Assembly (NCBI GenBank): GCA_021234155.1
Contig: JAJEKV010000139.1
Span: 1,360,386 to 1,424,385 of the forward strand
Source: Isoetes taiwanensis
Taxonomy: Eukaryota; Streptophyta; Lycopodiopsida; Isoetales; Isoetaceae
Direction: 5' to 3'
DNA length: 64,000 nucleotides
Shown: piece by piece, positions 14,831 to 42,689 of the stretch
How the letters are laid out: each line of letters begins with the position of its first letter
How positions within the stretch are numbered: the first letter of the stretch is position 1
Program-made: the position numbers and the translations under genes
Notes under the pieces: generated by a model
Told to the model about the DNA's origin: nothing
The model's database searches: none
What the model saw: only the letters and a program-made list of their open reading frames with translations

Positions 14831-15504
14831 TTTGCCATCCCGATTCTGAGATTACTTCTTTACTTTGTGGAACAAAGCAACTGCCTTCTTAATGTGCCCA
14901 TTTTGAAATATAGAAATAGAAATAGAGAAATAGCTTTGCAAAGCAAACAAGAGAACTTACTATCATAATTCTTGCCATAGCCTGTGAGAGAAAGAGAAGG
15001 CATAGCCTATGATGCTAGCTTCAGCTTCAATGATAATTCGATTTGGATCTGCCATGGTAGAATATGCACCACAAAATTAATTTGGATATGCACCACAAGT
15101 CTGCCATCGGAAAGCATGGCCTATGATGCTAGCTTCGGGTTCACTGAGATGTACCAATTAGTACGTCTCATGGAATACGGTGATCAAATCATATAAAAAC
15201 CGTAGGAAAAAAAAGTACAAAAATACAAAAGAAACCCCCTCTTATTATGCTATATATTCTTGATAATTTGTAAACAATTATTTATTGCAAAATCTGTAGT
15301 TTCAATATGCCAACTACAAGGATTGTAATAAGGTAGAAATTGTGGAGTCTTGGGTGTATCCTTTGTTGTATCTAATGCAATATACATGGAAATGAGTTCG
15401 AAGTACATTTTATATGAAAAGATGGGATTTAAATATGTACCTTTCCAAAAAATTTACTTCGCGAAGGGCCATCATTTATGTTAATAATAAATTGTAAAGA
15501 TGTT
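14831..15504. other. Intergenic left of the retroelement fossil
   Basis: It contains two partial copies of a CCTATGATGCTAGCTTC block (near 15005 and 15118) and two of a TTTGGATATGCACCAC-like block. No gene was recognised. Confidence 0.45.
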
Positions 15505-15712
15505 AGATATTGCATGAAAAGCCCTTAATGATACATAAGGTGATACGATTCAAGAAGAGGGCACAATGCTGCATATGTTGCCAAAATAGAACAAAGCAAA
15601 TTACTTTGAATCCTATAGAGGGGCGTGATCGAAAGTTTAATTGTAAAACCAAACCCAAATCGGTGAAGATGTGTCTTCAGAAGATGAAGATATGCAGGTA
15701 CTGAATATGTGT

Positions 15713-15732
15713 TCCTTTTTTTTAAAAAAAAG
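15713..15732. repeat. T8/A8 palindrome inside repeat A
   Basis: A run of T is followed directly by a run of A, bounded by CC and GG, giving a perfect short hairpin. Copy C keeps it (near 29558); copy B has an expanded T-run instead. Its function is unknown. Confidence 0.7.
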
Positions 15733-16552
15733 GAGAGTTTGCACATGAACAAGGAGGCTAAGAAAAGCTTAAAAGTTGTGACAGACACGTCTTTCTCCAT
15801 ACCTACAGACTACTAAGTAGTCTAGTGAAAAGGTAGATTAGATTAAAAGGATCTGAAAATAGTAACAGAAAATACATATTGTTGTTTGCTTATGTATTTA
15901 GAGTATTTGATAAGCACATTTTTTTACTGGCTATTACTAATCTCAAGGGCAAAAAAGAGTACATTGGGTAAAGGGCGTGAAGCCAAGAAAACCCAAGTAC
16001 CCTTTGGCCTGCACCATTACTGGGGTTTCATCGCTAATGTGTGTATTGATTGGTCAGCAGTACATGGTTTTTCTTTTCCCAATGTGTTGTTTTTGCTGTT
16101 ATGAAGTGTTTTTAGCTCAAAGGAATGTGTGGATCGATTTCAAAAGCTCAAAAATCGTACAAGACCTTATGAGGCAGAAAAATCTAAGTTTTGAAGACGG
16201 ATATAACATCTTAAGGATGCAAAAACTGCTTAAAACTTTGTGGTATTTATATTCCAGTTTTTAAGTTGACCATGCTTTAAGAATAGAATAGAAAATACCA
16301 ATCTTTCTACCAAGTATGAAAAGTTATAAGGCTTATATTTTGGGAGCAAGATTGATAGCTGAACCTAAACACAGGGATAAAACTATGGGTTGCTATTGTA
16401 TCTGATACACTTGAGAAATATAAACAGAAATTTTGTCCATATGTAAAAGAATGAATATTTAGGAAATGCATGAGCTGATGATTTTAAAAGGTGAAGGGAA
16501 TATAGACCTTTCAACTAAGAAAAGGACATACAGTAAAGCATGTAATAGAGCA

Positions 16553-16607
16553 TAATAGAATAGAATAGAATAGAATAGAATAGAATAGAATAGAATAGAA
16601 TAGAATA
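16553..16607. repeat. (AATAG)n microsatellite in repeat A
   Basis: About eleven copies of the pentamer lie at a point where copy C (near 30388) has none, so the expansion arose after the copies separated. Confidence 0.95.
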
Positions 16608-17181
16608 AACCATGATTGAGTAACAAATGGTTATTCCCCTCCCCCTCCCCCTCTATATGTAAAAATCTGTTTGGAAGGGAAATATGTAAGGATTCAGTTT
16701 TGACTATTAAATAAAACCATAGAATGTAACCTATTGTTGCAAATATTAGGTGCATGGTGGACATGCAAAAGGAATAATTATAGCAGGAATACAAGTTAGC
16801 AATCATGATAATAAAAAGTTGCAAATGTATGCAGATACACATATCTATTAGAGGACAAAAGTTACAAATTGAAAGGAAACTTATGGAATTAAGGTTCAAA
16901 GATAATTTTATACAAAGTCAGGAGACTTTTGAGACCACAGTAAGATGTAACGTCTATAACTAGCTCAGTTATTGTACGAAATGATAAAACTACTGAAGGA
17001 TTGACTGAAGTAGTATGAATGGCTAATAGGTCTGATGACCAAGTTAGCTAGGTCCGGGTTTTTTTTAGATATTTCATGGCATTGGTCTTATCAGTGCTGC
17101 ATCTTATCTGTTGGTATTATTATGAGCATTATTATTCAAATTACTAAGAAAGTTTGCACTGGAGCATGATTAAAATTGCAG

Positions 17182-18726
17182 GATGATGAAGAAGCCCAAA
17201 TCAATGTCGAGTTTGTGCCACCAGTATGGAATAAGGATCTCGTAGCCATCGGTTATGCTGCAAGCAAGATCATGTGCCCGAGTTATGATGTCCAGACACT
17301 GCTTTGCTGCATCAAAAATCCAAAAGTACACACATTACTCATTGAGAAGGAGCTACTAAGGAAGCCAGACCAACTGTCTGCTATTGGCCATTTAGAGTTC
17401 AGTGAATGGCACACATGTGTGCCAAAACTGAATAAAACAGGAGAGGATTGGGATGAGGCCATATTATTAGCGGAACAAATATACAATGGGCTACCAAGCA
17501 AAGTATACAAATGGACTATGTAGGAAGACAAAGCCAAAACACAATTGTACATTGGGGTCCCTGCTTTGGAAAAAGCCAATAACATAAAAAAGCCAAGCCT
17601 CAGCAGCGCCAACATGGAAAAAGGCAAACTGAGTGCTAAAAAGGATACAGATGAAGATCCGTTTGGGAAAAATCTTCTATCAGAAGAGGACAAAAAAACC
17701 ATGGCTGATAAATCTGGTTGTGGTAGTATGGAAGATGACAAGGAGTTTAAATTTACACTCCACAACAGTCAATTATTTCCCATTATTCCAGAAAGGTTAG
17801 TAGAAGGCCATGCTATGTTTTGTAACCAAGGAATATGGCGCACCAAAATTTTTGGTGCACTAGCACCTATCAGCAGAGAAGCTTGGGTTATGTTAGGACA
17901 TATTACACCTAAACAAGAATAAGGAGCTAGAATGGCTGCTGAAAAAATGGAGAAAATAATATACAAAGAAAGAATTAAACTGAAAATAGACCACAGATTC
18001 TTTGACAAGAAGTGTGACAAGGATGATTGCATCTATGTAAGACAGAAAGGCCATATGGCGTATTCAACTATTCGCAGGGATGCATTTTATCTTAAAAGAG
18101 TTTGGAATAGCCTATGCCCATACTTCAAATGCTTATGTGAACCTAGAATCAAAGGAAACAGTTGCAGGGATAACATGACATGGTTAGATCATGCAATCTG
18201 GTATATGTTCAACAATTTTGATTGTATTTTTCCAGACATGTCAACAGTAGCTCATATGGTATCTATGAGAAAGTTCATGAAGACTACACTCAAAGACAGC
18301 ATAATAGCATACCTATCCTATCTGGAAATCAGAGGTACATTGATTGAAATGACGTTTGTAATGGCTGCTGACCTTTGGGCAGATCTTAAGATTGTGTGCC
18401 CTAGTACAAAGATGGCTATAATTTGTGAAAAAAGTATTAAGCCCATAACATTCATGTTAAATTTGGAAGCAGGCTCCAGCAATAATCAAGGCAGAAAGGC
18501 AAAAATGGCAAAACCTAGAACCAGTACCATGAGTACAGGGAAGGGGTACACTCCACCTCGAATAACAGTAGCACCTGGAAGCTACAGCTCAAGCATGGCC
18601 GAGAACTCGGCAATAGAGCATATGAGTACACCAGGAACTCTGAACAACTCTGTTACGAAGCTGTCTCAGGAACCTAAAGTCAATATGGCAGATGGTGTCA
18701 TACAACAATTGAAATATGACAAATAG
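17182..18726 (+). pseudogene. First coding region of the fossil retroelement, unknown family
   Basis: One reading frame covers about 515 codons with roughly two interruptions. It begins after a good splice-acceptor-like TTGCAG rather than at an ATG; introns are known in Penelope-like elements, so a spliced leader is possible. The encoded protein is rich in Lys, Met and Asp. It has a region with VEFVPPVWNKDLVAIGYAA, an acidic linker, a cysteine-containing middle (KKCDKDDCIYVRQKGH and YFKCLCEPRIKGNSC), and a Ser/Thr-rich basic tail (about residues 420-515) that looks disordered. The paired cysteines might bind metal; that is speculation. I recognise no family. Confidence 0.5.
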
Positions 18727-19123
18727 GTACAAAAAAATGCTTTTCAAGTAATACTGTGAAAGTTTCTGTTGTATATCTTGCAAGTTGCATTGATAGGGCC
18801 CCCTTTTTTTAAAAAAAAAGGCATAACCTATGTTAATAATATGATATGAATCTATCAAAAGATCCTAAATATAGAGGACTATGAATTGTAAATATAGGAA
18901 GGAGGTTCCTTATGACAAAAGCAAGCTAGCATGCCATTGATCCATGCACAGCAGGAAAAAGGATAACATGAAATCCACCTATATGAGCTAAGGAAAGACC
19001 ACGGAAATAGATGGTCAGCCGCATAATAAGAGTGAGTACAGTAGGAACCATACTAATTTATAATGATTTAATTGGCCACAGAAGTCCAAAACTATCCTTA
19101 AAGACTGTCAAGGGAGACTATAC
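18727..19123. other. Spacer between the two coding regions of the fossil
   Basis: AT-rich, with a GGGCCCCC/T-run/A-run stretch near 18797-18821. No gene. It probably belongs to the element. Confidence 0.5.
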
Positions 19124-22083
19124 ATGTCAGAAAGGGAGGAGAAATGTAAAAAGAAAATAGTGCATTGTTTCTTCTTGTCAAAAATATTGGACAAGATCTG
19201 CGTCCCCAAAATAGTGCATAGATACATGAAGATGATTTTAGAGGAAGCTGGAGAGCAAATGATGGAAGAAACCATGTTTGCTTGGAAATACATTGAAAGC
19301 CGTAAAGAATTATGCTATAAACCGTATTATATCTTTGCCCAAGATGATGAACCAGGTTGTCCATTCCTTAATCCTAATCTGAAGAGCTTCATTGACAAGG
19401 AGGTGGGGCATATTAGAACTACCAACATCAATATTATACGAAACAAAGTACTTAGGAACCTTTTTAAGAAGAAGAAGAGATTTTAACGTCACGCCACAAG
19501 GCAGCGTCCTATCGGACATGTTCCTGATAGAATGCTAGTGTGGAAAGACATGAAAGCAGAGCTCAAAAAAATTTGTAATTCCATTTTTGAATTGCACAAA
19601 TACCAGTTTCCACATATTGTGGATGATGAGAAAGAGGAAATTATCTCAGGAGTATTGGAACAGGTGCATCAGGAGATAACTGAGGCATATAAAAAAGAGA
19701 AAAGTACTAAATTTGCTGCCCAAAGCATATAAGGGAAATGGCCTTAAAAAGACTGTCCAGTTCAGATTTTCTAGGGCAGGAAAAGGAAAACCTATGCATG
19801 GATATCCAGAAAGGAATACAAGAATGTATGGTGGATATCAGTTTTGAATCCCAAAATCTACCATATCTTTTAGGGTTATTCAAAGCACACAAGAACGAAT
19901 ACAGGTGGATAACCAATGCACACGGTTCTATATATACAGAAATAGCTGAGGTAATTATGGTTGTTCTAAACTCAGTTTTAGATATATGGCCACAAGTGTC
20001 AAAAGACCTTTGTGCTAGTATGACTACATTCCTGCCCAATATATTAACTCCATATATGATGTGGTCCTAAATTTGCCCAACAGAATAGAGGAAGTATTCG
20101 TTGCAGACATTACCAAATGTTATGAACGCATCCCCCTGTTAGGAGATAATGATATCTGTTCCATTAGTGAAAAAGTGATCAATACTACATGGGGTTTTAT
20201 GAAAAGAAAAAATAAAAGACATGAGCTATGGTTTAAGATAACCATCAATGGAAAGATTATGGTCAAATGGTTCAAGGTAGCACCACAGGGAAAATGCTGG
20301 AAGATGATGAGTCAGCAAAGATTTATTAAAATCAACAACTAGTTATTAACCAACTGTTTTGTAACTCTAGGAAAAGGAGTGTGGCAGCAGATAAGTGGTA
20401 TACCAATGGGCTTTTCTTGTAGCCCTAACTGGTGTAATATATATTTAGCATGATGATTTGAGATGGATTTTATAAAGAATCTTGCAAAACAAGGAAGATT
20501 TCAGGAGATTAAACTATTCAGGCATGTATTTAGATACATGGATGATCTACTAGCCATTAACTGCCCAAATATAAAAAACTTTCTAAATAGGAATTATGGG
20601 ATGGATAAAGAGGAAATACAGATATATGACATGGAGATCCTAGGATTAAGGAGGAGACCAGATACACGGAAGCTACCCCTAATGTGTATTATGCCATCGA
20701 TCCGAGCCCGCGGATCGACATTCTAGAAGGAGCAAGCATTGTTGTCTTGCATGCATGCATGCCTTCTCTGGGAGATCGCTATATTAGGCGGGGTTCTTCA
20801 TCAACGTTTCATCGGCGCTTCCTCTTCTCTCTCAGCAGTACCCTATTCTCTTTTCTTTGAAACCATGCAGGGGAGGGGCTTCTCCTTGCTTGGATTGACC
20901 AGTTTGGCGTTTCTTTCATGCTGTGGCATGTCCTTTCTCGGCCTTGCCTCTTCTTTAGCCATAATCTTTTGATCTTCGTCCTCGATCCCGTTTTGATATG
21001 GAAGTTCTCTTCTATTCGGGAGGTTTTTGTCGTTTTCATGCGAGCTCCTTCTAGAATGCCATCGATCCGAGCCCTCGGATCGACATTCTAGAAGGAGCGA
21101 GCATTGTTGTCTTGCATGCATGCATGCCTTCTCTGGGAGATCGCTATATTAGGCGGGGTTCTTCATCAACGTCTCATCGGCGCTTCCTCTTCTCTCTCAG
21201 CAGTACCCTATTCTCTTTTCTTTGAAACCCACCCTCCTCCCCCTTAATTGTTTAATGTATTTGTCGTCTGGCACGCGTGACCAGCCCCTCTATTTGAAGA
21301 GGTTTTTATTTTGTTGTCGCGTGGCACGCGTGATCAGCCCCTCCACTTTGGGAGGTTTGTTTTGTCATATTTGTTCTTGTGTTGGTGTTGTGCTTGCATA
21401 CAGGTTGGCAAGCATCGGTAACCGACTTCTCATTCGTTGGGTTTTTGGGAGCCCGAATTCTGACCCCTTACGTTTGTCCAAGCCCCTTGCCGGTTGGCGT
21501 ATCACTAGGGTTTTCCTCGAAAACCAAAAAGCGGGTTTTTAATCCCTTGATAAGCTTTCGGCAAATACACAAACAAACATCTATTAACATTGTATTTCAT
21601 GGGGTCCAAGTTGTATAATTGGACGTTCCTTTTATTTTTCTTCATGGGTAGTTCGCATGTGCGCGGCTACCCACTATCGAAAATCTGCTGAGATGAATGA
21701 GAAGCCTATCTATCGGGAGGTTTTTGTCGTTTTCATGCGAGCTCCTTCTAGAATGGTTATCAGGCACACTTCTTGAATATGACTATTCAAGTTTATGATA
21801 AGGTAATGGGAATGTTTCAAACTTTCCGATATGACAAAAGGGATACTTTACCCTTTAAGGTCATGAAATATGTACATGCATGTAGCTGCAGACCATACAT
21901 GCAAGCTAGAAATGTTATCCTTTCGCAGATTATGCCATTCATGTACATCAATTCTAGCCCTATCACTGCTGCACATGATATCCAGGAACTGATGAAAATG
22001 CTCGTCAGCAATGGTTTTGATGAAAAGGGAGTCAAGAAGCAAGTTATCAAATACATCAAAAACGGGGACCTCCAGGATTGAAG
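19124..22083 (+). pseudogene. Penelope-like reverse transcriptase region (fossil)
   Basis: Successive plus-strand pieces hold an N-terminal charged segment, LLGLFKAHKNEYRWITNAHG (the block before the catalytic core), ADITKCYERIP with the first catalytic Asp, WFKVAPQGK, GIPMGFSCSPNWCNIYL, and RYMDDLLAIN with the catalytic Asp pair. After a 1.06 kb insertion come VYDKVM, RYDKRDTLPF and a helical tail ending near 22083. The GIPMG box and the YDKRD block after the catalytic boxes are what link it to Penelope-like and related non-LTR RTs. The region carries several breaks and is inactive. Confidence 0.6.
20694..21755. mobile_element. Tandem MITE-like insertion with 15-bp inverted ends, two units
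   Basis: Two units stand head to tail inside the RT region: 20694-21058 and 21059-21755. Each begins with a 25-base leader starting CCATCGATCCGAGCC, then CATTCTAGAAGGAGC, and ends with GCTCCTTCTAGAATG, the exact reverse complement. The first about 140 bases and the last about 45 (GGAGGTTTTTGTCGTTTTCA) are shared, while the interiors differ in length and content. The leader itself has 7-base inverted arms (CGATCCG/CGGATCG). No transposase is encoded and no clear target duplication was found. It is a non-autonomous DNA element or a fold-back type. Confidence 0.75.
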
Positions 22084-22209
22084 TATGACATTGACACACT
22101 TGTGCAAGTACTGAAAGAACCATAAAAGGTATGGGTTTTATCTGATCAATAACACTATGGTTGAAATACATATGGAAACTGAAAACTAAGAACATAGGGT
22201 TGTAACAGG

Positions 22210-22231
22210 CCCCTACTGTAACAAGTAGGGG
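22210..22231. other. Perfect hairpin 127 bp after the RT region
   Basis: CCCCTACT, a 6-base loop GTAACA, and AGTAGGGG form a perfect 8-bp stem. It lies in the 3' untranslated part of the fossil, upstream of a second hairpin. Confidence 0.75.
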
Positions 22232-22297
22232 TCAATCCACCCCATAGTTACAGTTCCTTTTATAATGTTTAAAAGTAAAATAAAAGGGGTCTTTTAT

Positions 22298-22328
22298 AAT
22301 CCTACGGTAAGAGGTAGGATTTTTTTTA
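22298..22328 (+). terminator. Hairpin followed by a T-run (terminator-like)
   Basis: AATCCTAC and GTAGGATT form a perfect 8-bp stem with an 8-base loop, running straight into eight T residues. The form is that of an intrinsic terminator, but in a plant nucleus it more likely reflects RNA structure at the element's 3' end. The function is not established. Confidence 0.4.
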
Positions 22329-22439
22329 TGAAAGCCTAAAGAATGTGAAAATTCTAAATTGAAGGCTGCATAAGTACTATAAGATTTATTGAAAATGTAA
22401 CACTATGAACCATAAGCAATAAATACCTAAATAGGCTGA

Positions 22440-23994
22440 AAATAGCTAAAGGTATATGGCATAGACCATAGGGAATATGGAGTTAAAAATATAAGGAATA
22501 AAATCCTTAAGGTAACTATGAGATAATATGGAGTGTATGGAAGCGAAGGCGAAGAAAGGTCTTTTATGATAAGTTTATTTCTTCTCGGTGGTGCTTCAAG
22601 AAATTGTGAAGAAGTTGTATAATTGCTTCGGATCTCCAATTGGTCCGATCGTATTAAAATTCCAATATGGAGTGATCATCTAAAAGTGATTGATGCTTCA
22701 GGGACATTTCTTACTTCTGGAAGTACTTTGTAATATTTTGAGTGTATAATATGAAGTAAAACACGTTCTTCAAAAAAAAAAAAAACTATGAGATAAAGGG
22801 ATTTGTAGCATGATTCAATTTGTGGAAAATAATTAAGCATTTGAACATTCAAAAGGTTTTTTTTTCGTGGAAAATAGAAGACAGGAAAATTGGGTATGTC
22901 CAAAGATCCAAAATTTATGGCATGGGGAGAAGCGAGGAAATGGCGGTCGACCACGGATAAAAATCCGGTCGCCTTGTTCCATCAAAAGCTAAGGTTAATT
23001 ACACCGCAATCTTTATGACTTAGCATTTTCCCTGGCAAAACCCCCAATAGCAAATATGGGGTATTTGTCCAGACGTTTACGATAATAGTGTCTCGAGAGG
23101 AAGATAAAAAGCATTTGAGACGGATAGAGAGTCGCCTCCGTGTAGAAACACGGTTAGATTGAAAGCCCTAAATATGGAAAAGAAAGGGCAATAGAGGGAT
23201 AATGATTCAAGAAGAGGGCACAATGATGCATATGTTGCCAAAAGAGGGGTGGATTCAACAAAAGAGTCTTTGGATCCTATAGAGGGGGTGACCCGAAGTT
23301 TGTATCTGAAACCCAAATCGGTGAAGATGTGTCTTGAGAAGATGAAGATATCACAATCTTGAATATGTGTTCCCTTTTTCTTTTTTTTTTTTTTTTTTTA
23401 GAGTCCGCACATGAACAAGGAGGCTAAGAAAAGCTTAAAAGCCGTGGTAGACACGCCTTTCTACCTACTGGAACTACTAAGTAGTCTAGTGAAAAGGTAG
23501 ATTAGATTAAAAGGATCCGAAAATAGTAGTATGAGAAAATACATATTGTTGTTTGTTTATGTATTTAGAGTATTTGACAAGCACATTTTTTTTACTGGCT
23601 ATTACTAATCTCAAGGGCAAAAAAGAGTACATTGGATAAAGGGTGTGAAGCCAAGAAAAACCCAAGTACCTTTTGGCCCTTGCACCATTACCGGGTTTAC
23701 TGCTAATGTGTGTATTGTTGGCTGGGCAATTACATGGTTTTTCTTTTCCCAATGTGCTGTTTTTTACTTTGTCATGAAGTGTTTTTTAGCTCAAAGGAAT
23801 GTGTGGATCGATTTCAAAAGCTCAAAAATCGTACAAGACCTTCTTAGGCAGAAAAATCTAAGTCTTGAAGACGGATATAACATCTTAAGGATGCAAAAAC
23901 TGCTTAAAACTTCGTGGTATTTATATTCCAGTTTTTAAGTTGAGCATGCTTTAAGAAAATACCAATCTTTCTACTAAGTATGAAAAGTTATAAG
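22440..23994 (+). repeat. Long repeat, copy B (right of the fossil coding region)
   Basis: It starts near AATAGCTAAAGGTATATGGC and matches copy C throughout and copy A from about 23205 on. It is interrupted by a 259-bp poly(A) insertion (22526-22784) and stops abruptly at 23994, where GC-rich sequence begins; A and C continue past this point. Confidence 0.85.
22526..22784 (+). mobile_element. Short poly(A) retroposed insertion with target duplication
   Basis: A 259-bp segment ending in 13-14 A residues is flanked by the 11-base direct repeat ACTATGAGATA (22515-22525 and 22785-22795). Copy C of the same repeat (near 28972) has a single TTATGAGATA and no insert, which is the empty site. The insert could be a 5'-truncated LINE, a SINE or an mRNA retrocopy; its last half reads through a short frame but matches no family I know. 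Confidence 0.85.
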
Positions 23995-24600
23995 GTAGCG
24001 TGGCCGAGCGTGTCCAGCGGCAGCGAAGCCCGGGCGCCGGAGAGGTCGAGCCAACCGTAGGCGTGCCGGCCGGCACGTGTCGAGGCCCGAGCCGTGCGCG
24101 CGTCTTGAAGAGGACGAACCGCCACGGGGCTGGCAGCGGGCCGAAAGCATGTCAGGCGAGCTAGAGGCCGGGCGCAAGACCGAGAGGCCGAACTCCTCTA
24201 GGGGGCGAGAGAATAGCCACGGCAGCGGGGCGAGTTGGTGCACTGTGAGGAGGCTGGAGTAACCTTATATGGGTACGGAATTGCCGGGCAAAGCATGCAG
24301 CCTGCACAATTCGTGAGGCGTTTGCCACCGCAGTGGCGGGTACGGGGCCTGCTGCCACGGGCAGCCTACAACCCGCGCATTCGAGAGGTGCGGAGCCGCC
24401 TGGGGCGTGCAAATGGCCGAAGCGTGGCTTCCGCAAAGCGAGCCGCGGCGCATCTCGTGAGGACGAGCCGGGCCGCAGATTCGGGCAATGAGCCGAAGCG
24501 CAGCCTGCAAGCCGGGCTAGTCAAGCACTCCATAGAGGTCGGCGCCTCCAGGTGGGCGAGGCCGGGCGCGAGGCGACGGGCAAAGTGAGCCGCCGCGCTT
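23995..24600. other. GC-rich island with abrupt borders
   Basis: About 600 bases of very GC- and CpG-rich sequence replace the AT-rich background at both edges: the left edge cuts repeat B, the right edge cuts an LRR coding segment on the minus strand. Frames are open on both strands, as expected from composition, but the predicted proteins are Arg/Ala/Gly-rich and match nothing known. It may be a fragment of a GC-rich transposable element that filled a deletion. Confidence 0.6.
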
Positions 24601-24602
24601 AA

Positions 24603-24880
24603 AGAGAATGATGTTTTTTAAAGATATCAAGGGATTAGAAAAAGCTGGAAGCATATTCGAGGAAGAGAGGTTCAAACGCCAAAGGTTTTGTAAATGCTCT
24701 AAGTTGCCAAGAGAATTTGAAAGCATATGTAATTGCTTATCTTCTCTAATTTCTATAAAACGCAAGTTGCTAAAGCATTTAAACGAAAAGGAAAGAAGTT
24801 GGTGATGTACCTGTGTTGATTCTACTCCATATTTAAGGCCTCCAACAGACAAGACTTGTAGGTCCGGAAAGCACTATAAT
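24603..24880 (-). pseudogene. Leucine-rich-repeat exon fragment of a resistance gene
   Basis: Minus-strand reading gives FPDLQVLSVGGLKYGVE, then FSNLRFIEIRED, LGNLEHLQNLWRLNLSS and ISLKNIILF: at least three LRR units of the LxxLxxL.I form spaced as in plant NB-LRR proteins. It opens after an acceptor-like ATTATAG on the minus strand and is cut off by the GC-rich island at 24600. It may be the LRR end of the NB-ARC fragment at 27740-28820 on the same strand, about 2.9 kb upstream. Confidence 0.65.
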
Positions 24881-25318
24881 CCCAAATATTGAAGATAGAT
24901 TAGTTATTTTGATTTCGTATAAATATGTAGCATAATAACAGGGGGTTTTCTTTGTGTTTTTTTACGCTTTTCACAAAGGTTTTCTCAAGATTTCATGGCG
25001 TATTCGAATAGATGTACTAATGCGTACATCTAGAGTGCACCATTTCTTAGTCGTTGATTTAGTTTTTTTTTTTTTTCAATGGTCCAACATCCAAGGGCTC
25101 ACAACAAAAGCCCTCTTTTTATTTTAGGGCTGAACATGCAAGCCTCGTGGATAGCATTTTAGGGCATTCTCTGCCCTAAAGCTTGGCCGTGAACCATTGT
25201 TGGGGTTGGCCGACATCACGGCACATCGGATTTGAAGCAGGGGATTTGCTAACCCATATTTCTGGTCTGCAGAACACATTAATATAAAGGATACCCGACT
25301 TTTTTAAGTCTTTGGTGC

Positions 25319-25540
25319 ACGCATTTAAAGAAAAAGGCCATTCTGGTAACTTTCAGAGGCACTGAAATATTCAACGCTTTCGATTGGGCCACAGATTTCT
25401 CTTTCCAGCCTATAGACTTTGGAAAAAATTTCAGCGTTCATGCTGGTTTTCTTACGGGCTTATTTAGGGTTAAGGTTGGGCCTTGAAACCCCCAAACGCT
25501 ATGGACTTCGCCACAACATGAGGATTCCAATGCAGTTATG
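25319..25540 (+). pseudogene. Class-3 lipase fragment (oil-body lipase-like)
   Basis: The plus strand encodes KAILVTFRGTEIFNAFDWAT, then a stretch leading to NFSVHAGFLTGLF, and ends at a TGA at 25484. Plant class-3 (alpha/beta-hydrolase) triacylglycerol lipases have the pattern FRGTEPFNAxDWSTD...GKVHxGFLxALGL. A further piece, LGLETPKRYGL, follows in a shifted frame. The catalytic GHSLGG exon was not found downstream. A fragment or single surviving exon. Confidence 0.55.
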
Positions 25541-25559
25541 CCTGAGATCCCTCTTTGAT

Positions 25560-27190
25560 TGAACATGATGTAATCCGTTGTTGCAGACGTGTATAGAGGT
25601 GTTTCATGAGTGCGGCTTGCCTTCTAGCACTTTGGAGGTATGTGCAAAACCCCCCAGGCTTAGCTTTTCTTCTGCGGCAAAAACCCTTTCATTCTAGCTC
25701 TGTAAGAATAAGGCAGCTGCATAGTTTTTTTTGGACGACCTGCCACAAAAAGGCTTTGAATCAGATGCACTGATCCATCAAACAGCTTTGGGGACAGAGT
25801 ATCTTCTAGATGAGCATTTAAATCCGGCCATAATCTTGCACCAAGTGCTGTAGAATCGAAAATATTCTGTATCATTTGTTAAACAATGATTTATTAAGAT
25901 GATGCTGGCTGTTCTTTTTATGTTCTTTCCATCTCGACATCTTCATAGTACTGCAAAGTATTTCTGTTACATGCATGTCTTACAGGGCTATCAATGGCTA
26001 ATATCAATGAGTAAGGATGGTTGTGTTGAGCAAACTTTGGAGCATCATAAAACTGCATTGTTGACCTCCTAGGGCGGACATGAGAGTTGGACGTGGCCGA
26101 AGCTTTGATTAATAGTATACCATTTGGGGGATAATTCAACCTCTTGGAAAGCCTTGCTTGGTTCTTGTCTAATATTTGGTGACATAGCAAGAGGAAAGCA
26201 TCTTTTACTGTCTGGTGGTCAATTTGGATCCGAGAACATCCAAAGACCTATGTGTTGTTGTCAAACATGTGTGCTCTATAGATGAGGAAAGGCAAGCTGT
26301 TAGTGAATTACTGATCCGAGTGTTTGTGTTTATATTGATACATCTGAAGTAATTGTTGGGAGTATCCAAAGGAGGATCTTTGCTCCTAGCTGATAAAGAA
26401 CATTGGATTTTCCTACACCCTAAAGGTCTCTTAAAGATGTTTCCTTTCCTTACTAGGTAAGGGGCCAGGAAAAAGAAAAAGCTTAATGGCCTTTTGGGAC
26501 GTGCAGGGTATACTGCGTGGCAAGTAAGGGAATTGATCAATGGAAGGCACACGTTTTTGAAAGGATGCCATAACAGCCAAGACAGTTCCATTCAACATGT
26601 CTTTGCTTCTTGTTTGGGGGTAACCGCCCCCGGACTTTGGGAACATCTGACCTAGCAAGTAAGGGAACTGATGAACGACAAACACGAGATGCCAGGACAA
26701 TTATCAGATTTTGGATCATGCTTTTGCTATAAGAACAAATTGTCAATGAAAAGATCCATCCAAGTACATGCAGAGTGAATATCTATTCAAGTACCTGCAG
26801 GGAACATTTTTGGCTTAGTGACAATAGGGTCTGTTGTGGTTGGATTTGTTGGGCATGTACAGAGGTAAGCCGTAATCTGTTTTAGTTTTGGTAAGATGAA
26901 ACTTTTGTTTACTCAACTCATGTCGATGTAAGATTGCGATGTTATAGGATGCCTTGAATAAACCCAGTATGGTGAATCTCGTTACCATATTACCCTGGCC
27001 TCCATGGACAATTATCAAGGCAGGTTTTAAGTTTTTGTTTGCTCAGGAGTACAGTATTTTGTATTCTATAAGCAACTTCAATAAATAAGAGAGAGTTGGC
27101 AACTTCAATAAATAAGACCAAATCTGTTGCTGTTGCTGATGAAGATAATAAATGGTTTTTTTTTTTGGAAAAAGCGCACCGCAAGTTCAC
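25560..27190. other. Unassigned; isolated exon-like pieces
   Basis: No complete gene was recognised. A plus-strand piece between CTGCAG and AG/GTAAGC at about 26800-26871 reads NIFGLVTIGSVVVGFVGHVQ (membrane-like) and could be one exon. A minus-strand GVGKSNVLYQL near 26400-26430 recalls a P-loop but stands alone. Confidence 0.25.
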
Positions 27191-27194
27191 GTGC

Positions 27195-27718
27195 CTATGT
27201 TTGCTTTAGTTAGGGCCCGAAGGGCTTAAAATTTTTTTTAATATAACAATCAACACACAACTACCATTAACATTATTAACACAAATCATTGCAATTAACA
27301 TATTTAAATTAAAATCCCCCTTAAACCCCCTTTGGTTTGGGTGCACATTCACACGGGGGTTTACTCCGGGCAACGAGAGCTGTCGGATGGGCATATTTGC
27401 CCATTATTCCAAGATCTGGACCGTACATAGCGATCCTCGTTTGTGGGGTATGCATGTACAAGTTTTTGTATACTGTATATTAAGGTTTGCAAAATACTAT
27501 AAGGTTTTGAGAGAATGTACTTAATGGTGTTAATTTTGTACATGTATTGTAAAAATAGTTTTGGGGCTCTCGCTGCCTTACGTAACCCCCCGTGTGAATA
27601 TGCACCCAAACCAAAGGGGGTTTAAGGGGGATTTTAATTTAAATATGTTAATTGCAATGATTTGTGTTAATAATGTTAATGGTAGTTGTGTGTTGATTGT
27701 TATATTAAAAAAAAATTT
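27195..27718. repeat. Fold-back pair of the 'GTGTGAATATGCACCC' repeat
   Basis: Copy 2 (27195-27365, inverted) and copy 3 (27584-27718, direct) face each other. Short complementary GAGAGC/GCTCTC blocks just inside extend the arms, leaving a loop of about 180 bases. Transcription across it could give a long double-stranded RNA stem. Confidence 0.8.
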
Positions 27719-27764
27719 CTTGTACCATTTTCTTGTACCATTTTCTTGTACCATTTTCTTGTAG
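27717..27764. repeat. 13-bp minisatellite (TTCTTGTACCATT), about 3.5 units
   Basis: The unit is repeated without change next to the right arm of the fold-back repeat. Confidence 0.95.
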
Positions 27765-28820
27765 GAGGCAACATTCCAAACCTGGAGAAGGCTCAGATCG
27801 ACACTATGAGATAATTCAAATGCTTTGAGATCATAGTTTTTATCTTGTGAAGTGGTACTTGCACCATACGTAGTAAAATTACCATCGCATCTTAGGTAAA
27901 GTAGATTCTTTTGCAACGGTAGAAATCCCAAATCAATGGTAGATTCTCGGTGAATGTGTAATGCACGCACTCCTGTTCTTTCTTTTGAAACTTGCATCTA
28001 CATTCAAGTAAGAAAGTTGGTTACAAAGGCGAACAAGGACATAGATTTCTATAAAGGGACAAGCACATGCCTCTGATGTGAAATATTTCCAACCCTTTGT
28101 CTTTGCATGCTTCTCGATGGCAAAAAACAAGTCGTGGCAGTCTAAACTGAGCAAAGCGTCGTTAAAGTGTCGTGTGATTGTAAAATGAATTTCTTTCTTG
28201 GAATAAATAATGGACTCTTGCAACAAAACATCCAAAATATCTTCATCCCGAATAGATAGAGCACATCGGGCCATTTCGAGTGATCGTCCACGCCCAAAAA
28301 GCGCGGCATCAATGAATGCATCTTTCACCTGCTCACTTTGAGCATCAATGCTAGCTTCTAACGATCGTGGAACTTCGTCATCGTCATCAGCAGTTGATGG
28401 GGTTTCGGTAGATGTCAAGATCCGTTGCTTAACTTTTCTCCACTCTGTTTCGTTGCGTCTCTCTAGTCTTCTAAAGTAGGTACCATGTGTTTTAATTGCC
28501 AATGGAAGCCCACTAGTGGGACTATTTCATTTATGAGATTCCACTCTTCGTTCTTATTTTCATTTCTGCACACTTCATGAACAATTGTTCTGCTTCTTGT
28601 GTGTCCATCAAGTTGGGCTGAAAGAGTCGGAATGCACTTGCATTTTTTGCATTTTTTGGACAACAAATATCACCAAACTCTTTGGCTACTTCTTGGGAGC
28701 GTGTGGATATCATTAAACAGCTTGATTGTGGAAGATGAACATGTAGGTGTGCTGGCAACAACTCTTTCAAATGTCTTACTTTGCACACATTATCGATTGA
28801 CAAGCACAAAGTTGAGCCCT
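27740..28820 (-). pseudogene. NB-ARC (NBS-LRR resistance) gene fragment
   Basis: Minus-strand order: LSIDNVCKVRHLKELLP (kinase-2-like, about 28816-28745), SCLMISTRSQEVAKEF (RNBS-B), LMDTQEAEQLFMKCA, GLPLAIKTHGTYFRRLE (GLPLA motif at 28497-28511), then an open stretch with VKDAFIDAALFGRG (RNBS-D-like) and CHDLFFAIEKHAKTKGW (MHD-like, with Cys for Met), and finally KNLLYLRCDGNF, an LRR beginning. The family is a nucleotide-switch immune receptor of the cytoplasm. The P-loop and N-terminal domain are missing: the fragment is cut on its 5' side by a CCTT microsatellite and repeat C. Frame changes lie in the RNBS-B to GLPLA stretch. Confidence 0.75.
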
Positions 28821-28831
28821 TTTCCTTTAAA

Positions 28832-28864
28832 CCTTCCTTCCTTCCTTCCTTCCTTCCTTCCTTT
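28832..28864. repeat. (CCTT)n microsatellite
   Basis: About seven tetramer units lie at the junction between the NB-ARC fragment and repeat C. Confidence 0.9.
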
Positions 28865-28883
28865 AAACCTTGTAAGCAATACT

Positions 28884-30594
28884 CCAATCTAAATAGCTAA
28901 AGGTATATGGCATAGACCATAGGGAATATGGAGTTAAAAATATAAGGAATAAAATCCTTAAGGTAATTATGAGATAAAGGGATTTATAGCATGATTCAAT
29001 TTGTGGAAAATAATTAAGCATTTGAACATTCAAAAAGGTTTTTTTAATGGAAAATAGAAGACAGAAAATTTGAGTATGTCCAAAGACCCAAAATTTATGG
29101 CATGGCGAGAAGCGAGGAAATGGCAAATAACCACGATAAAATCCTATTGCCTTGGTTCCACCAAAAGCTAAGGTTAGTACACTGCAGCCAGTCTTTATGA
29201 CTTAGCATTTTCCCAGGCAAAACCCTGCAATAGCAAATATGGGGTATTTGTCCGACGTTTCTGATAATAGTAGCTCGGGAGGAAGATACTGCAAGCATTT
29301 GAGATCGGATAGAGAGTCGCTTTCCCGTGTAGAAACACGCTTAGATTGAAAGCCCTAAATATGGAAAGAAAGGGCGCAGAATAGAGGATAATGATTCAAG
29401 AAGAGGGCACAATGATGCATATGTTGCCAAAAGAGGGGGTGGATTCAACAAAAGGCTGCTGGATCCTATCGAGGGCGGATCGAAATGAAAATTACAAACC
29501 CAATCCGGTGAAGATGTGTCTTCGAACATGAAGATATGCGTGCTTGAATATGTGTTCCTTTTTTTTAAAAAAAGGAGAGTTTGCATACGAACAAGGAGGC
29601 TAAGAAAAGCTTAAAAGCCGCGGGTAGACATCGCCTTTCTCCATACCTACGACTACTAAGTAGTCTAGTGAAAAGGTAGATTAGATTAAAAGGATCTGAA
29701 AATAGTAACAGAAAATACATATTGCTGTTTGTTTATGTATTTAGAGTATTTGATAAGCACATTTTTTTTACTGGCTATTACTAATCTCAAGGGCAAAAAA
29801 GAGTACATTGGGTAAAGGGTGTGAAGCCAAGAAAAACCCAAGTACCTTTTGGCCCTTGCACCATTACCTGGAGGTTATCGCTAATGTGTGTCTTGATTGG
29901 CTGTGTACATGGTTTTTTCTTTTCCCAATGTGCTGTTTTTTTCTTTATGAAGTGTTTTTAGCTCAAAGGAATGTGAATCGTTTTTAAAAGCTCAAAAATC
30001 GTACAAGACCTTCTGAGGCAGAAAAATCTAAGTTTTGAAGACGGATATAACATCTTAAGGATGCAAAAACTGCTTAAAACTTTGTGGTATTTATATTCCA
30101 GTTTTTAAGTTGACCATGCTTTAAGAAAATACCAATCTTTTTAACAAGTATGAAAAGTTATAAGGCTTATATTTTGGGAGCAAGATTGATAGTTGAACCT
30201 AAACACAGGGATAAAACTATGGGTTGCTATTGTATCTGATACACTTGAGAAATATAAACAGAAATTTTGTCCATATGTAAAAAAATGAATATTTAGGAAA
30301 TGCATGAGCTGATGATTTTAAAAGGTGAAGGGAATATAGACCTTTCAACCAAGAAAAGGACATACATTAAAGCATGTAACAGAGCATAAAGGAAAACCAG
30401 GATTGAGTAACAAATGGTTATCCCCCAATATGTAAAAATCTGTTTGGAAGGGAAATATGCAAGGATTCAGTTTTGACTATTAAATAAAACCATAGAATGT
30501 AACCTATTGTTGCAAATATTAGGTGCATGGTGGACATGCAAAAGGAATAATTATAGCAGGAATACAAGTTAGCAATCATGATAATAAAAAGTTT
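28884..30594 (+). repeat. Long repeat, copy C (third copy, away from the coding region)
   Basis: It matches copy B from its start and copy A from about 29390 to its end at AGCAATCATGATAATAAAAA. It has no poly(A) insertion at the site used in B and no AATAG expansion as in A. No retroelement coding sequence adjoins it, so it is a solitary repeat or a rearranged end. Confidence 0.85.
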
Positions 30595-30728
30595 TTTAGC
30601 CTTTAAGAATTTGTCTATATCTGAATGCTTGATCATGGTTTGACACCTAAAGGTCGGTCTTACACCATAGAAATTGATATGGTGACATCAAATATGCATG
30701 TTCCAAAATGTTGACAGAGTGAATAAGA

Positions 30729-31968
30729 CTCCTGCTATAAGTAGTTAGGATCGGATGGTTCTTGGCGCTGTTGCCTCCGCCTGCGGCTAGGGCGGCGGAG
30801 AGGGAGAGACCGCCTCTCTCTCTCAAATCCGGCACTACTACTTCTAATTGAGGGGGAATTTTCCATGATCTGGGGCTAGCAAGGCCTTTGGTCACCGTGG
30901 AGAGGTTTCTTGGTGCAACAAAGAAAAAACAGTTCTTGAAGCGGCATCGTATGCTCCTTCTAGTTTAATCGGTAATGCCACTAACGTGGTTTTTTTGCTC
31001 TCTTGCTTCAGATTTTCTGAAGCATTATGCAAGTTTGCATGTAAGCAATTTATGCAGTTTTCCAGCAATCTTTAGTATCATTTCTTCAAACACGAGACAG
31101 CGATGGGTGCTTTCTAGCAAATGCACATTGAAACGGCCTTGAGATGCCTATAAGATGGAGCAAATTTTAGGCGATTGCTAGGAAAGAGGTGCGGTTCCAA
31201 GTTCTTGTAGTTCCTTCTTTTCTTGTCCAGGTTCTTTTACTCTTGGCCATTCCTGTCTTCATACTCTTTCTTTCTAGCAGAAAGGTACAGTTTGCGCTTT
31301 GGATGATCAGAAAGACTCTTGTCTAGTTAGTGGAATTATTTGTGTTAGTACAGTTTTATTGATTTTTGGGATGGAGAAAACAGAGAAAACAGGTTGTATT
31401 TTGTGATAGCAAATTGAATGATTTCATAAGCACTCGGTTCCTGCTCTGGTACTGCTATGTCGGAGTGGTAGATTTTCAAGCATGACACTCGGTTCCTGCT
31501 CTGGTACTGCTATGCCGGAGTAGTAATTTTTTTCAAAGTTTCATGTTTGATGAGTGAGAGCTTGTTCAAGTTTTAAACTTGAACTTTCATTCTTCTGCAG
31601 CTGGCAGACTGATTGCTAGACCTTACACTGTACGGTGAGATACTTCTATCCTTTATTCAGCATCACAGGAACTTTCACAGGATTCTGCTACATGATTTGA
31701 TTCATTCAGGGGCCTCTAGGGCTTTTCCTTTGTATCATCAGTCACTCTCTGGTTACTATGTGTGAAGATTCATGAGAACTATCATGACTATCAGCTATCA
31801 GAGCAGTATTTGGGCTTCATGTATATCAGTAAGCTTGTGTTAGTAGAGAATGAAGATGTCGAGATTACTCATGTAGTAATTCTCTATTAACATCAAGCAT
31901 TGTACTTCTTTATTTATATATAATATAAAAAAATCTCTTACCTTAAAAAAAAAAAAAAAAAAAAAAAA
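30729..31968 (+). mobile_element. 1.24-kb noncoding poly(A) retroposon with target duplication
   Basis: The 12-base direct repeat GAGTGAATAAGA (30717-30728 and 31969-31980) flanks a segment that ends in about 24 A residues. The 5' part is GC-richer with a CT-rich block (GGGAGAGACCGCCTCTCTCT) resembling a LINE 5' UTR; the 3' end, ATCTCTTACCTTAAAA, resembles the tail of the L1-type copy at 10363. No ORF of note lies inside. It is therefore either an internally deleted LINE or a non-autonomous family mobilised by one. Confidence 0.85.
31432..31530. repeat. Internal duplication in the 1.24-kb retroposon
   Basis: CACTCGGTTCCTGCTCTGGT plus about 20 more bases occur twice, about 55 bases apart, differing mainly at TGTCGG/TGCCGG. 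Confidence 0.9.
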
Positions 31969-31980
31969 GAGTGAATAAGA

Positions 31981-32820
31981 TAGAATCCTCTAATCATCTA
32001 GATACACATTTGATTGGGCTTCAACATACAAGCAAGTAATTCCTATCTAGACATTTGCGAAGGAAAGCCAGCGTAAAGAATATTAGACATTTTCCTTACA
32101 TTTGAGTTTTAGTAATTTTGGAATGATGTTTGATCTAGCTTAGAGAAGTTGAAATACATTGTTGCTTCCTTTGAAATACATTGCTTGCTTCCGTTTCATT
32201 TGTTGACATATTGTTTTGTGTCCACAAGAACGAACTGCCATTAACTATTTTTATTTTTACTAGTAATTTAATGTCAAGAATTGAGATCCAATGATAATGG
32301 AATCTGGCAATAAACAGCTGGTGGTAAATATTTAACATGGCATTTGGATTGTTAGACATAGTGGGTACAAATGGGTTTTTATGTTGACAAACATGGGGCT
32401 TTACTGGCCAATTTTCCCCAAGTAATTCTATGTACCCAATGATTAGAGGGACCAATGCAAATATCCAAAGTAGTAACTCAATTTGTAGTATAAGAATAAT
32501 TTCAGAAAAGTAGAAACTTGACATTGGTGAAAAGAAGTGGCACTGTCCATACACTTTGATTCAACATAGCCCAGTGTTCGGAGGCAACTTGGAAACTGGA
32601 GAAACAGAATTCAAGCCTTAAAAAGCCATTCTATTTGTGAAATTACACTGGTTGGACTTCCTTTCTCCCTTTCTCCTATTTATGGCAGCGGGAAATCAGG
32701 ATGGAGGTTTCAATTTACATATTTATAAGTATATATGTAAAAACAATTTCAAACAACAAAAGCATAAGAGTGTCCAGCACAGATAAAGAGCTCTCCCTGT
32801 GTCCTTGCGGGTCCTCTAAA
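31981..32820. other. Intergenic, no recognised gene
   Basis: AT-rich sequence that continues the locus interrupted by the 1.24-kb insertion. No supported coding region. Confidence 0.5.
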
Positions 32821-32828
32821 CCTTGCAA

Positions 32829-33330
32829 TCATATTTGACAAGAGAAAGTCGAGCTGTCGCTATAACTTATCTGATAATAATACTTGCGCAATTTACAACA
32901 TTCAAGCCAAGAGTAGTGCCTGACTCTGTACAGATAATATGCATCAGGAAACTCCTTATGCAACTTGTTACGCTCCACAATTTTGTATGCTACCTTATAC
33001 AATCCCATGTCCATACATTGTTGTACAAGGAAGCAGCATGTTTCAGCACCGAGATAAGCTACCCATGAAACTATTTTGATAAGAAATTCCTGAGAAGTAA
33101 AATCTTGCATATCAAACTGCTCCAAAATAGAGACTGTAGAGTTATAGGAGCATTTCTTTACTAGGTCTAGAATAATCTAGAAGACATTTAGTTTCATTAT
33201 GTTTGCCAGCTTCATCAAGCACTTGTGCATCACAACAATCTGCGATATCCTTGATTTTAACTCCGAAAACAATGACAAGCTTGACAAGAACTTTTTCATC
33301 CATATCAATGAACTTTTTTTTTCATCCATA
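32829..33330 (-). other. Unrecognised protein-like ORF
   Basis: The minus strand reads FTSQEFLIKIVSWVAYLGAE, then CCFLVQQCMDMGLYKVAYKI, then VERNKLHKEFPDAYYLYRV: an evenly amphipathic, helical-looking stretch of about 80 residues, in a region whose upstream part (about 33300-33140) reads in another frame with KIKDIADCCDAQVLDEAG. It looks like decayed real protein rather than chance, but I do not know the family. Confidence 0.3.
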
Positions 33331-39480: not shown

Positions 39481-39834
39481 CAGAGTCTTTGCAGTTTAAA
39501 ATTATATAAGATGAAATCCAATGGGGAATGGATATGGTAATTTTGAGAACCACATAAAATGAAATCTCCACCAAAACCAATATGCTAGCTTCCATATCCA
39601 ACTCAAAACAGAAACAAACAACGCTTGAAAATCATACAAAAAAATGAATTCCACCAAAATCATTATGCTAGCTTCCATATCCAACTCAAAATAGAAACAA
39701 ACAACGCTTGAAAATCATACAAAAAAATGAAATCCAATGGGGAATGGATAAGGTGATTTTGAGAACCATACAAAATCCCTAAAGCATTATGCTAGCTTCC
39801 ATATCCAACACAAAAAGAAAACAAACAAAAATGA

Positions 39835-39906
39835 TGTGCCTGGTAGGGATCGAACCTACGACTGCGTGCTTAAAAGGCACATGCTCTCCCACTGAGCTAC
39901 AAGCAC
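39835..39906 (-). tRNA. tRNA-Lys(UUU), copy 1
   Basis: The 72-nt minus-strand sequence folds into a full cloverleaf: acceptor GTGCTTG/CAGGCAC (one U.G), D arm GCTC/GAGC, anticodon arm TGTGC-CTTTTAA-GCACG with anticodon TTT, T arm GTAGG-TTCGATC-CCTAC, discriminator A. The internal polymerase III boxes are intact (TAGCTCAGTGGGAG and GGTTCGATCC). A run of five T lies just downstream on the minus strand. No intron and no encoded CCA. Confidence 0.93.
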
Positions 39907-40606
39907 AAATAATAATAAAACATATTTTGCATATAGAAGTAGAATAAATATAGATGTTTTTTGTTTTTTTTGGTCAAAATACCATTTAAAGGTACTGCGA
40001 CATAAGGTACCCAAATTTTACAATTGAAACTGGTTGCTCTCCCTAAAATGAATTTATGAAATCCTTGAATTGTGATTGGATTAGCTATCTTCTATATCTC
40101 AAAATCATTATGCATAAAAGCTTTCTTCTTGCTATCTTTTGCATGGTGCAGATTTCGAACAGCAAAATTGTTCAACATTTATTGCGTCATTTTTAACTGA
40201 AAAGAAATATGTTAGATATCGAAACAACTATGCTCGTGGCCCTATCTCCAAACTGAAAGGAACATGTTACATCTAAATTACAATCAATACTAACATCTTA
40301 GGATGAGGAGCCATCGCTCTTGATTATCTAAGCGCTGAGAAGAGAAAAAAACATAAAGAAATTTTTAACCATCCACTTGAGACTAGTATATGATATGCAC
40401 ACATAACACTAAACAATGTTCATTGAGTTGTTCTCCAATCACTTTACATTTAATGCATCATCAATCCCTTAGCAAACAATACTTGCAAATCATACAAAAC
40501 TAATCCAATGGAGAATGGATAAGGTGATTTTGAGGACCACAAATAATCCCAAAAGCATTATGCTAGCTTCCATATCAAACTTGAAAAAGATACAAACTAC
40601 ATTGAT

Positions 40607-40658
40607 GTGTCTGTGGTAGGGATCGAACCTATGACTACGTGCTTAAAGGCACATGCTC
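40607..40658 (-). pseudogene. Truncated tRNA-Lys pseudogene
   Basis: The 3' half is recognisable (GGTTCGATCC B box, T arm, anticodon region with one T lost). The 5' third, including the acceptor 5' strand, D arm and A box, is missing and replaced by an A-rich run. It corresponds to the second unit of the array. Confidence 0.85.
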
Positions 40659-41817
40659 ATAATGCAAAAAAAAAAAAAAAAGAAAAAAGAAGAAAAAAAA
40701 CTATATTTTGCAAATTATAAACCTAATGCATTCTTGTCCAAATGATGTATAGAACTATTGCAACGCAACTTTGGGTGATATAGGTATCCAACATTTTACA
40801 ACTAGACCTAGATTAACTCTTTGAAATGATTGTGAATCGATTAGCTATCTTCTATATCTCCAAATCATTTTTATCTCGAAATCATTTTGCATGGAAGCTT
40901 TCTTCTTGTTATAAATTTGGTGCAAATTTCGAACAACAATTATGTTCAAGATATATTGAGAGTCATTGTTAACTGAAAAGATATACATTAGATGTTGAAA
41001 CAACTATGCTCATGGCCAAACTGAACATCTAAACAACAATCAAAACTAACACTTTAGGCTATGAATCACCAACTCAAAACATTAACAAACAATCGTGAAT
41101 GCATCATGAATCATCAATTTAAGACATTAACAAACATGAATCACCAATTTAAGACATTAACAAACAACGTTTGACAAAATGAATGTAATGGGGAATGGAT
41201 AAGGTGATTTTGATAACCACACAAAATTCCAAAAGCATTATCCTAGTTTTTATATCCAACTCAGAAAAGAAACAAACAAATGTGATTCCAAAGCTAGCTT
41301 CTATATAAAAAAAAAAGCAAACAAATGTGATTCCAAAGCTAGCTTCTATATCCAAAGCAAAAGAAATGAATGTAATGGGGAATGGATAACGTGATTTTGA
41401 TAACCACAGAAAATTCCAAAAGCATTATCCTAGCTTTTATATCCAACTCAGAAAAGAAACAAACAAATGTGATTCCAAAGCTAGCTTCTATATAAAAAGC
41501 AAACAAGCTTTTATATCCAACTCAGAAAAGAAACAAACAAATGTGATTCCAAAGCTAGCTTCTATATAAAAAGCAAACAAATGTGATTCCAAAGCTAGCT
41601 TCTATATCCAAAGCAAAAGAAATGAATGTAATGGGGAATGGATAACGTGATTTTGATAACCACATAAAATTCCAAAAGCATTATCCTAGCTTTTATATCC
41701 AACTCAGAAAAGAAACAAACAAATATGATTCCAAAGCTAGCTTCTATATAAAAAGCAAACAAATGTGATTCCAAAGCTAGCTTCTATATCCAAAGCAAAA
41801 GAAACAAACAAACGTGA

Positions 41818-41889
41818 TGTGCCTGGTAGGGATCGAACCTACGACTGCGTGCTTAAAAGGCACATGCTCTCCCACTGAGCTACAAGCAC
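41818..41889 (-). tRNA. tRNA-Lys(UUU), copy 2
   Basis: Identical over all 72 nt to copy 1, with the same intact A and B boxes, even though the surrounding unit has diverged and expanded. On the minus strand a TTTT run follows about 20 bases after the gene. Confidence 0.93.
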
Positions 41890-42462
41890 AAAATACGTGA
41901 ATAAATATTTTGTATTTAGAAGTAAAAGAATTTAGAGATTTCTTATCCAAATACTGTTTAAAACTATTGCAACGCAACTTTATGAGATATAGAGTACCCA
42001 TGTTTTAAAATTGGAACTGGATTAACTCTATGAAACGAATTTATGAAGTCCTTGAGTTGTGAATAGATTAGCTATCTTTTGTATCTTGATATCATTTTCA
42101 TCTCAATATCTTTCTATATGGAAGCTTTATTCGTGCTATCTATTTGGTGCAGATTTCAAACAACAATAGTGTTCAACATATATTGAGTGTTATTGTTAAC
42201 TTAAAAGAAACATGTTAGATATTGAAACAACTATGCTCATGGTCCTGTATTCAAACAAAAAGGAACATGTTCCATCTAAATTGCAATCAGAACTAACATT
42301 TTAGGATGAGAAGTCGCCGCCCTTGTTATATTTAAGAGCTGAAAAGGGATAAGTAAAATAGCAATTTTTAACATCCACTTGAGACTGGTGTATGAGATGC
42401 ACACACAACACCAATATTGCTTCTCGAGCCCTTCTCCCAATCACTTTACTTCGAATGCAACA

Positions 42463-42520: not shown

Positions 42521-42689
42521 GTGCAAACAAAAACGAATATATGATATAAGTAAATATTTGTTTTGTGGTTTTTTTTTGTGTGGGGGGGAGGAGGAGTATA
42601 TTTTCGACCATAAGAATGGCATCAAATATTGACTAAGCAAATGCATGCTCCATATCCAACCCAAGAGCAGAATAAACAACAATGTTGCG

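Follow-up and report, generated by a model that had tools for sequence, protein, structure and literature searches.

Endonuclease-less, or EN(-), Penelope-like elements (PLEs) are described in PMC6431247 as having two open reading frames (ORFs) and a measured length of 4-6 kb; the priming proposed there uses telomeric overhangs and, following a 3' fold, short repeats complementary to them. Such elements are listed in Selaginella and in the conifers Pinus and Picea (PMC9033089 and PMC12477314), and the distribution of PLEs in plants has been called patchy (PMC9033089). The element in this report lies at 15505..23994 of a 64,000-nucleotide (nt) stretch of the lycophyte Isoetes taiwanensis (contig JAJEKV010000139.1), referred to below as the window. 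It is an old copy, now decayed, belonging to a large retroelement superfamily in Isoetes, for which we searched the genome (1,658,258,908 bases in 1110 contigs). The best reading, to which we give a probability of about 0.6, is that these are endonuclease-less Penelope-like retroelements, primed at A/T tracts by pairing of a U8 tract with oligo(dA); Penelope membership is probable but not proven.

Coding regions and their relatives in the genome

An earlier sequence-only reading of the window had noticed two long repeats, A (15547-16331) and B (23204-23995), on the same strand; their identity is 84.8% over 817 alignment columns, far above chance. They bracket a decayed ORF1 followed by a decayed reverse transcriptase (RT), and the distance between them, less two inserts, is ~6.34 kb. 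ORF1 occupies a single frame (17170-18723); by comparison with stop-free relatives it comprises 514 codons at 17182..18723 on the plus strand, where the other parts of the element also lie, with in-frame stops at 17521-17523 and 17920-17922 and an acceptor-like AG directly before 17182. The RT remnant (19124..22122), identified through the Pfam domain RVT_1 in stop-free relatives, is spread with stops across three frames, in segments at 19067-19483 with 19487-19729, at 19711-20067, at 20022-20339 with 20343-20450 and 20457-20690, and, for the C-terminus, at 21752-22078. All the RT blocks named in the sequence-only reading are present: ADITKCYERIP, GIPMGFSCSPNW, RYMDDLL and YDKRD. Its picture of two ORFs in a plant host was also correct, and elsewhere in the genome there are intact relatives in which both ORFs are open throughout.

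The genome searches yielded 90 RT matches, scored from 4187 first-look candidates (55-100% identity), and 85 ORF1 matches from 84 scored of 3834 candidates (52-100% identity); these are lists of best matches, and first-look candidates are not confirmed copies. The term "fossil" used earlier suits the decayed window copy and not the family, since 68 of the 90 RT matches are free of stops. For 38 of the 85 ORF1 matches, an RT match follows on the same strand at a distance of 0-4 kb, and 38 of the 90 RT matches have ORF1 upstream, compared with two neighboring pairs in another order or strand. ORF1 was likewise found upstream of all six diverged RT copies that were fetched with upstream DNA, at 37-88% identity. 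The order repeat-ORF1-RT recurs in other copies; the condition that would have refuted the sequence-only reading, copies elsewhere in which repeats and coding region are unconnected, therefore does not hold.

Many copies sit deep within large scaffolds, and some form tandem arrays. Six RT copies on one scaffold are spaced 6301-6339 bases apart, and a second array has a 6.79-kb period. Five of the six units in the first array are mutually 91.7-98.2% identical over the RT stretch compared, and one dispersed copy is equally close. At C1028:6945617-6957246, ~11.6 kb of other DNA splits a tandem array, with ~300 bases of ORF1 on either side. Between subfamilies, nonsynonymous divergence (dN) is 0.11-0.17 for ORF1 and 0.15-0.17 for the RT, with synonymous divergence (dS) of about 2.6 or saturated; within subfamilies the ratio w is 0.1-0.6, except for a value of 1.2, based on six differences, in one pair of array copies. 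Judged by these substitution patterns, ORF1 and the RT are both under purifying selection and were maintained as working genes.

The intact RT ORF encodes about 690-700 amino acids (aa), with an N-terminal extension ahead of the RT motifs. RVT_1 was found in all 16 stop-free RTs (E up to 1, best 5.9e-8); one of our RT sequences, P0003, scored 26.7 bits against this model, under the Pfam cut-off of 29.6. All 16 of these uninterrupted RTs keep the catalytic D..DD unchanged, and motif spacings are near-constant. PLE RTs form a clade sister to the telomerase RT. When our RT profile was run against 681 local segments, a small test on fragments, an exon of the host telomerase covering the motif B region came out on top (13.6 bits, E 8e-4); the remaining segments, including gypsy and LINE (long interspersed nuclear element) fragments named by eye, stayed below 5 bits, at chance level. 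Motifs A and B are 97-98 residues apart in these RTs, and telomerase RT carries an insertion between them. In motif order, with a DK motif ahead of the other motifs and a thumb block following the YxDD box, these RTs may be like Penelope RT, and they may also be similar to unnamed algal and dinoflagellate RTs. The Penelope assignment made in the sequence-only reading is, in our hands, a weakly supported placement suggested by the RVT_1 matches and the telomerase exon. The window pieces searched separately in Pfam and NCBIfam gave nothing informative. Scans of viral and prokaryote contigs with motifs, P0003 and an alignment (A4) returned no relative, two motif scans of viral contigs returned no canonical Penelope motifs, and phmmer and profile searches of the PDB gave chance matches or none.

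ORF1 in relatives is about 510-540 aa long and stop-free. Across several subfamilies it had no Pfam match or PDB relative. AG stands directly at the 5' border of ORF1 in 13 of 16 copies; in the other three an AG lies within nine bases or is shifted by one base (read by eye, with several copies from one array). A splice acceptor just before ORF1 is likely from the sequence, and part of ORF1 may accordingly lie upstream.

Pfam searches of ORF1 and the RT in several subfamilies revealed no RNase H, integrase, protease or gag, although a strongly diverged domain could escape them, nor was a LINE endonuclease (APE or restriction-like) or a tyrosine recombinase found. No telomerase RNA-binding domain was among the Pfam matches of the RT. 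GIY-YIG is absent from the 700-aa RT ORF, where Pfam reported RVT_1 and one chance-level match. The genome does contain 121 GIY-YIG matches, obtained by scoring 150 of 263 candidates and situated in open frames no longer than 200 aa; none of the 90 RT matches lies within 5 kb of those listed, and one lies within 10 kb. The earlier description of an RT without a recognized endonuclease agrees with these searches.

Terminal repeats and poly(T) borders

Direct repeats do flank the coding region, as had been proposed, with A and B being merely pieces of them. By comparison with other copies, the full terminal repeat extends from the T8 after the RT (22320-22327) to the T8 before ORF1 (17059-17066), about 2.1-2.15 kb when an insert at 22527-22783 is excluded. 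Five loci have homology that starts at the homologue of 22320, nine have homology that stops at the homologue of 17066, and the repeat therefore takes in most of the non-coding sequence, from ~200 bases after the RT to ~115 bases before ORF1. Alignments to same-genome copies show that the left repeat of the window (15519..17066) is 5'-truncated, with homology from ~15519-15547; it includes A and has GTCCGGG-T8 as its 3' end. The right repeat (22320..23995) includes B and is truncated 3' at 23995.

Outer ends were mapped among 30 repeat loci and a further alignment set, solely where homology starts or stops at these two positions. Loci that run into ORF1 or the RT or stop elsewhere were left out: the window copies A, B and C (the third, described below), two repeats on C1067, L042, and short matches such as L041 and L045. 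All five mapped 5' ends abut T-runs, of 29, 34, 13, 39 and 27 bases, as do all nine mapped 3' ends, with runs of 21, 26, 14, 18, 16, 10, 11, 11 and 13. The nine 3' ends amount to eight independent ones, as C46 and C1105 have a common 3' flank; the two 11-base ends share one flank. A T-run of at least 10 bases is present at 14 of 14 mapped outer ends and one of at least 12 at 11 of 14. Runs of at least 12 number three in the 64-kb window and three in 47.6 kb of flank, and because they are this rare the poly(T) ends are not a matter of chance. A short target-site duplication of fixed length would be indistinguishable inside such ends.

The inner borders of the repeat are T7-T9. After the left repeat, 14 of 15 copies have AGANAYTTC next to the T-run, including subfamilies with RTs at 55-75% identity, and the bases before the run vary; the exception, L052, has no T-run at the place searched. 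A genome-wide search with the strict pattern CCGGG-T8-AGANAYTTCAT gave 134 exact matches, and its reversed control gave none. In the window this junction of repeat and coding region, delimited by the genome-wide motif matches and the multi-copy comparison, is CCGGG-T8-AGATATTTCAT at 17054..17077. Before the right repeat, CCTACGGTAGGAGGTAGGA-T8 or a near variant was found in 10 of 10 loci, whose RT C-termini are 59-100% identical to P0003. It could form a short hairpin; the window version, ATCCTAC/GTAGGAT plus T8, spans 22299..22327 on the border of the RT region and is kept with few changes in all ten.

Repeats also occur outside the full unit. A solo repeat with both ends lies on C1097, and C952 has a direct repeat-to-repeat junction, in which the end of one repeat is joined through T13 to a sequence like a repeat start. 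Two repeats on C1028, at 8.37 and 8.41 Mb, are 98% identical and lie 34 kb apart with an RT and other DNA between; we take them as the pair of one insertion. The ends and the junction, read directly, have no TG...CA and no TGG directly adjoining the repeat, and no doubled TTTAGGG or TTAGGG is present in the window or in three array loci.

Two insertions foreign to the element interrupt the window copy. One of ~1.06 kb inside the RT (20694..21752) is multicopy, with tens of genome matches, the best 94-96% identical, and has internal repeats, among them a 174-nt duplication, and a near-palindromic center at 21038-21104. The other, in the right repeat (22527..22783, plus strand), reads as SINE-like (short interspersed nuclear element), with poly(A) and a 13-bp duplication of AACTATGAGATAA, and is missing in the third repeat copy. 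That third copy (28891..30593, plus strand) is solo-like and cut on both sides, and its 3' untranslated region (UTR), repeat and 5' UTR run on without a break. Pieces of window 24416-32940, the third copy included, are duplicated at C1067:4945257-4952192, mostly at 89-97% identity. Elsewhere in the window we noted by eye a leucine-rich-repeat-like reading frame (24520-24873) and a long GGAA-type simple repeat (63120-63491); three tRNA-Lys(TTT) genes lie on the minus strand within a locally repeated block (39567-45392).

Mechanism and alternative explanations

If the elements are endonuclease-less PLEs, a full-length RNA would start within the repeat, and ORF1 would probably be read from an RNA spliced at the acceptor immediately upstream, its product perhaps being an RNA-binding partner, a guess from position. 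Where an A/T tract is nicked or broken, the U8 tract that closes the repeat could pair with the oligo(dA) 3' end, the RT would extend this primer, and the opposite end of the repeat, through its T8, could join the other side likewise. By analogy, such A/T-tract priming would be the counterpart of priming on telomeres by other endonuclease-less Penelope elements. Repeated insertion, template jumping and unequal exchange are possible origins of the arrays.

Several points weigh against this reading. Clade membership is argued from the match to one host telomerase exon and from motif order, and the NCBIfam group II intron RT model also matches the RT (E 3.7e-4). Hammerhead ribozymes are reported in Penelope repeats; with matches of E up to 5 admitted, Rfam detected none in five loci or in window 15400-24100, although minimal ribozymes can escape this search. 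A hidden nuclease fold in ORF1 is possible, because the AlphaFold2 models were too poor for a fold search, with a mean pLDDT (the model's own confidence score) of 41.8 from an alignment of 8 rows and 28.9 from one of 14. The poly(T) could in part be RT slippage. Over half of the ORF1 and RT matches have no listed partner, although partners may be missing from best-match lists. The window copy may be no single clean insertion, because A, B, the third copy and the two C1067 repeats lack canonical ends and A and B are 15% different. Finally, the purine-rich GGTAGGAGGTAGGA before the right repeat and the fixed motif after the left one recall the positions of the polypurine tract (PPT) and primer-binding site (PBS) of long terminal repeat (LTR) elements.

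This last point belongs to the strongest rival, which we consider unlikely: a new order of LTR-type retroelements, with true 2-kb LTRs made by a PBS/PPT cycle, an RT on the telomerase/Penelope side, and integration machinery in ORF1. The 98% identity of the paired C1028 repeats, the complete solo repeat on C1097, and the location of the purine-rich stretch and fixed motif directly beside the repeats speak for it. It is countered by the lack of any recognized RNase H, integrase, protease or gag in either ORF, by repeats without TG...CA ends or an adjoining TGG, and by outer ends in poly(T) with no visible fixed-length duplication.

Far less probable is a pararetrovirus-like episome integrated as concatemers, its circular genome having left the 6.3-kb head-to-tail units and a repeat that continues into the following unit. 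The evenly spaced array and the third window copy, which crosses the repeat without a break, would suit such an origin, but separate loci have their mapped outer ends at the same two T8 borders and not at random, and no plant pararetrovirus domain was recognized in ORF1 or the RT. An ordinary LINE or LTR element with repeats duplicated later is compatible with the decayed, interrupted window copy alone, with its 15% different repeats, and is very improbable given that many loci have the repeat-ORF1-RT order and the conserved junction motifs. A DIRS reading was rejected, no tyrosine recombinase having matched ORF1 or the RT in Pfam.

Endonuclease-less PLEs thus stay our preferred reading, beside which we put forward a more tentative proposal, less probable than not on our assessment: that the family is a retroelement lineage in its own right, which unites long LTR-like repeats with an RT from the telomerase side and an unfamiliar ORF1, has no need of its own endonuclease, primes by U8 on oligo(dA) in A/T tracts, and forms a large, recently active component of the genome.

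Comparison with known elements

The sequence-only reading regarded the arrangement as undescribed. That part did not hold: two-ORF endonuclease-less PLEs are already in print, Selaginella included, so the arrangement is not new (PMC6431247, PMC9033089 and PMC12477314). What does look like a new variant is the siting in poly(T) together with the long repeats bordered by T8; neither poly(T) siting nor T8-bounded 2-kb repeats were found in open-licence full texts, a set outside which main Penelope papers lie, and the open-licence papers that mention both Isoetes and Penelope are, going by titles and abstracts, on other subjects.

Among described elements, the LTR retrotransposons Gypsy and Copia share paired similar terminal repeats and solo repeats with the Isoetes element, which differs from them in having no recognized LTR domains, TG...CA ends or adjoining TGG. 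LINEs have an endonuclease and no terminal repeats, whereas the Isoetes element has terminal repeats and no recognized LINE endonuclease; DIRS elements have a tyrosine recombinase, of which none was recognized in ORF1 or the RT. Telomerase RT gives the best local profile match, around motif B, but the Isoetes element is mobile and multicopy. Endonuclease-bearing, EN(+), PLEs (Penelope/Poseidon, Naiad/Chlamys) carry the GIY-YIG that the Isoetes RT ORF is without.

The closest likeness is to EN(-) PLEs, that is, those of Selaginella, Pinus and Picea and Athena of rotifers; Coprina is another. The 6.3-kb unit with ORF1 and RT matches their compact, two-ORF, endonuclease-less form, the terminal direct repeats and head-to-tail arrays are Penelope-like, and Selaginella supplies a lycophyte relative. 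The Isoetes family, weakly supported as a member of that clade, differs in its ~2.1-kb T8-bounded repeats, in which no hammerhead was found. Isoetes offers a large, apparently recently active lycophyte set with uniform units, fixed poly(T) ends, conserved border motifs and a conserved ORF1, and this makes the priming of endonuclease-less PLEs in chromosome interiors directly testable by sequence. EN(-) PLEs are marked by telomeric location or by telomeric repeats at their ends, whereas the Isoetes family occupies interior poly(T) sites; if it is indeed a distinct lineage, it would be the interior analogue of the telomere-primed Penelope elements.

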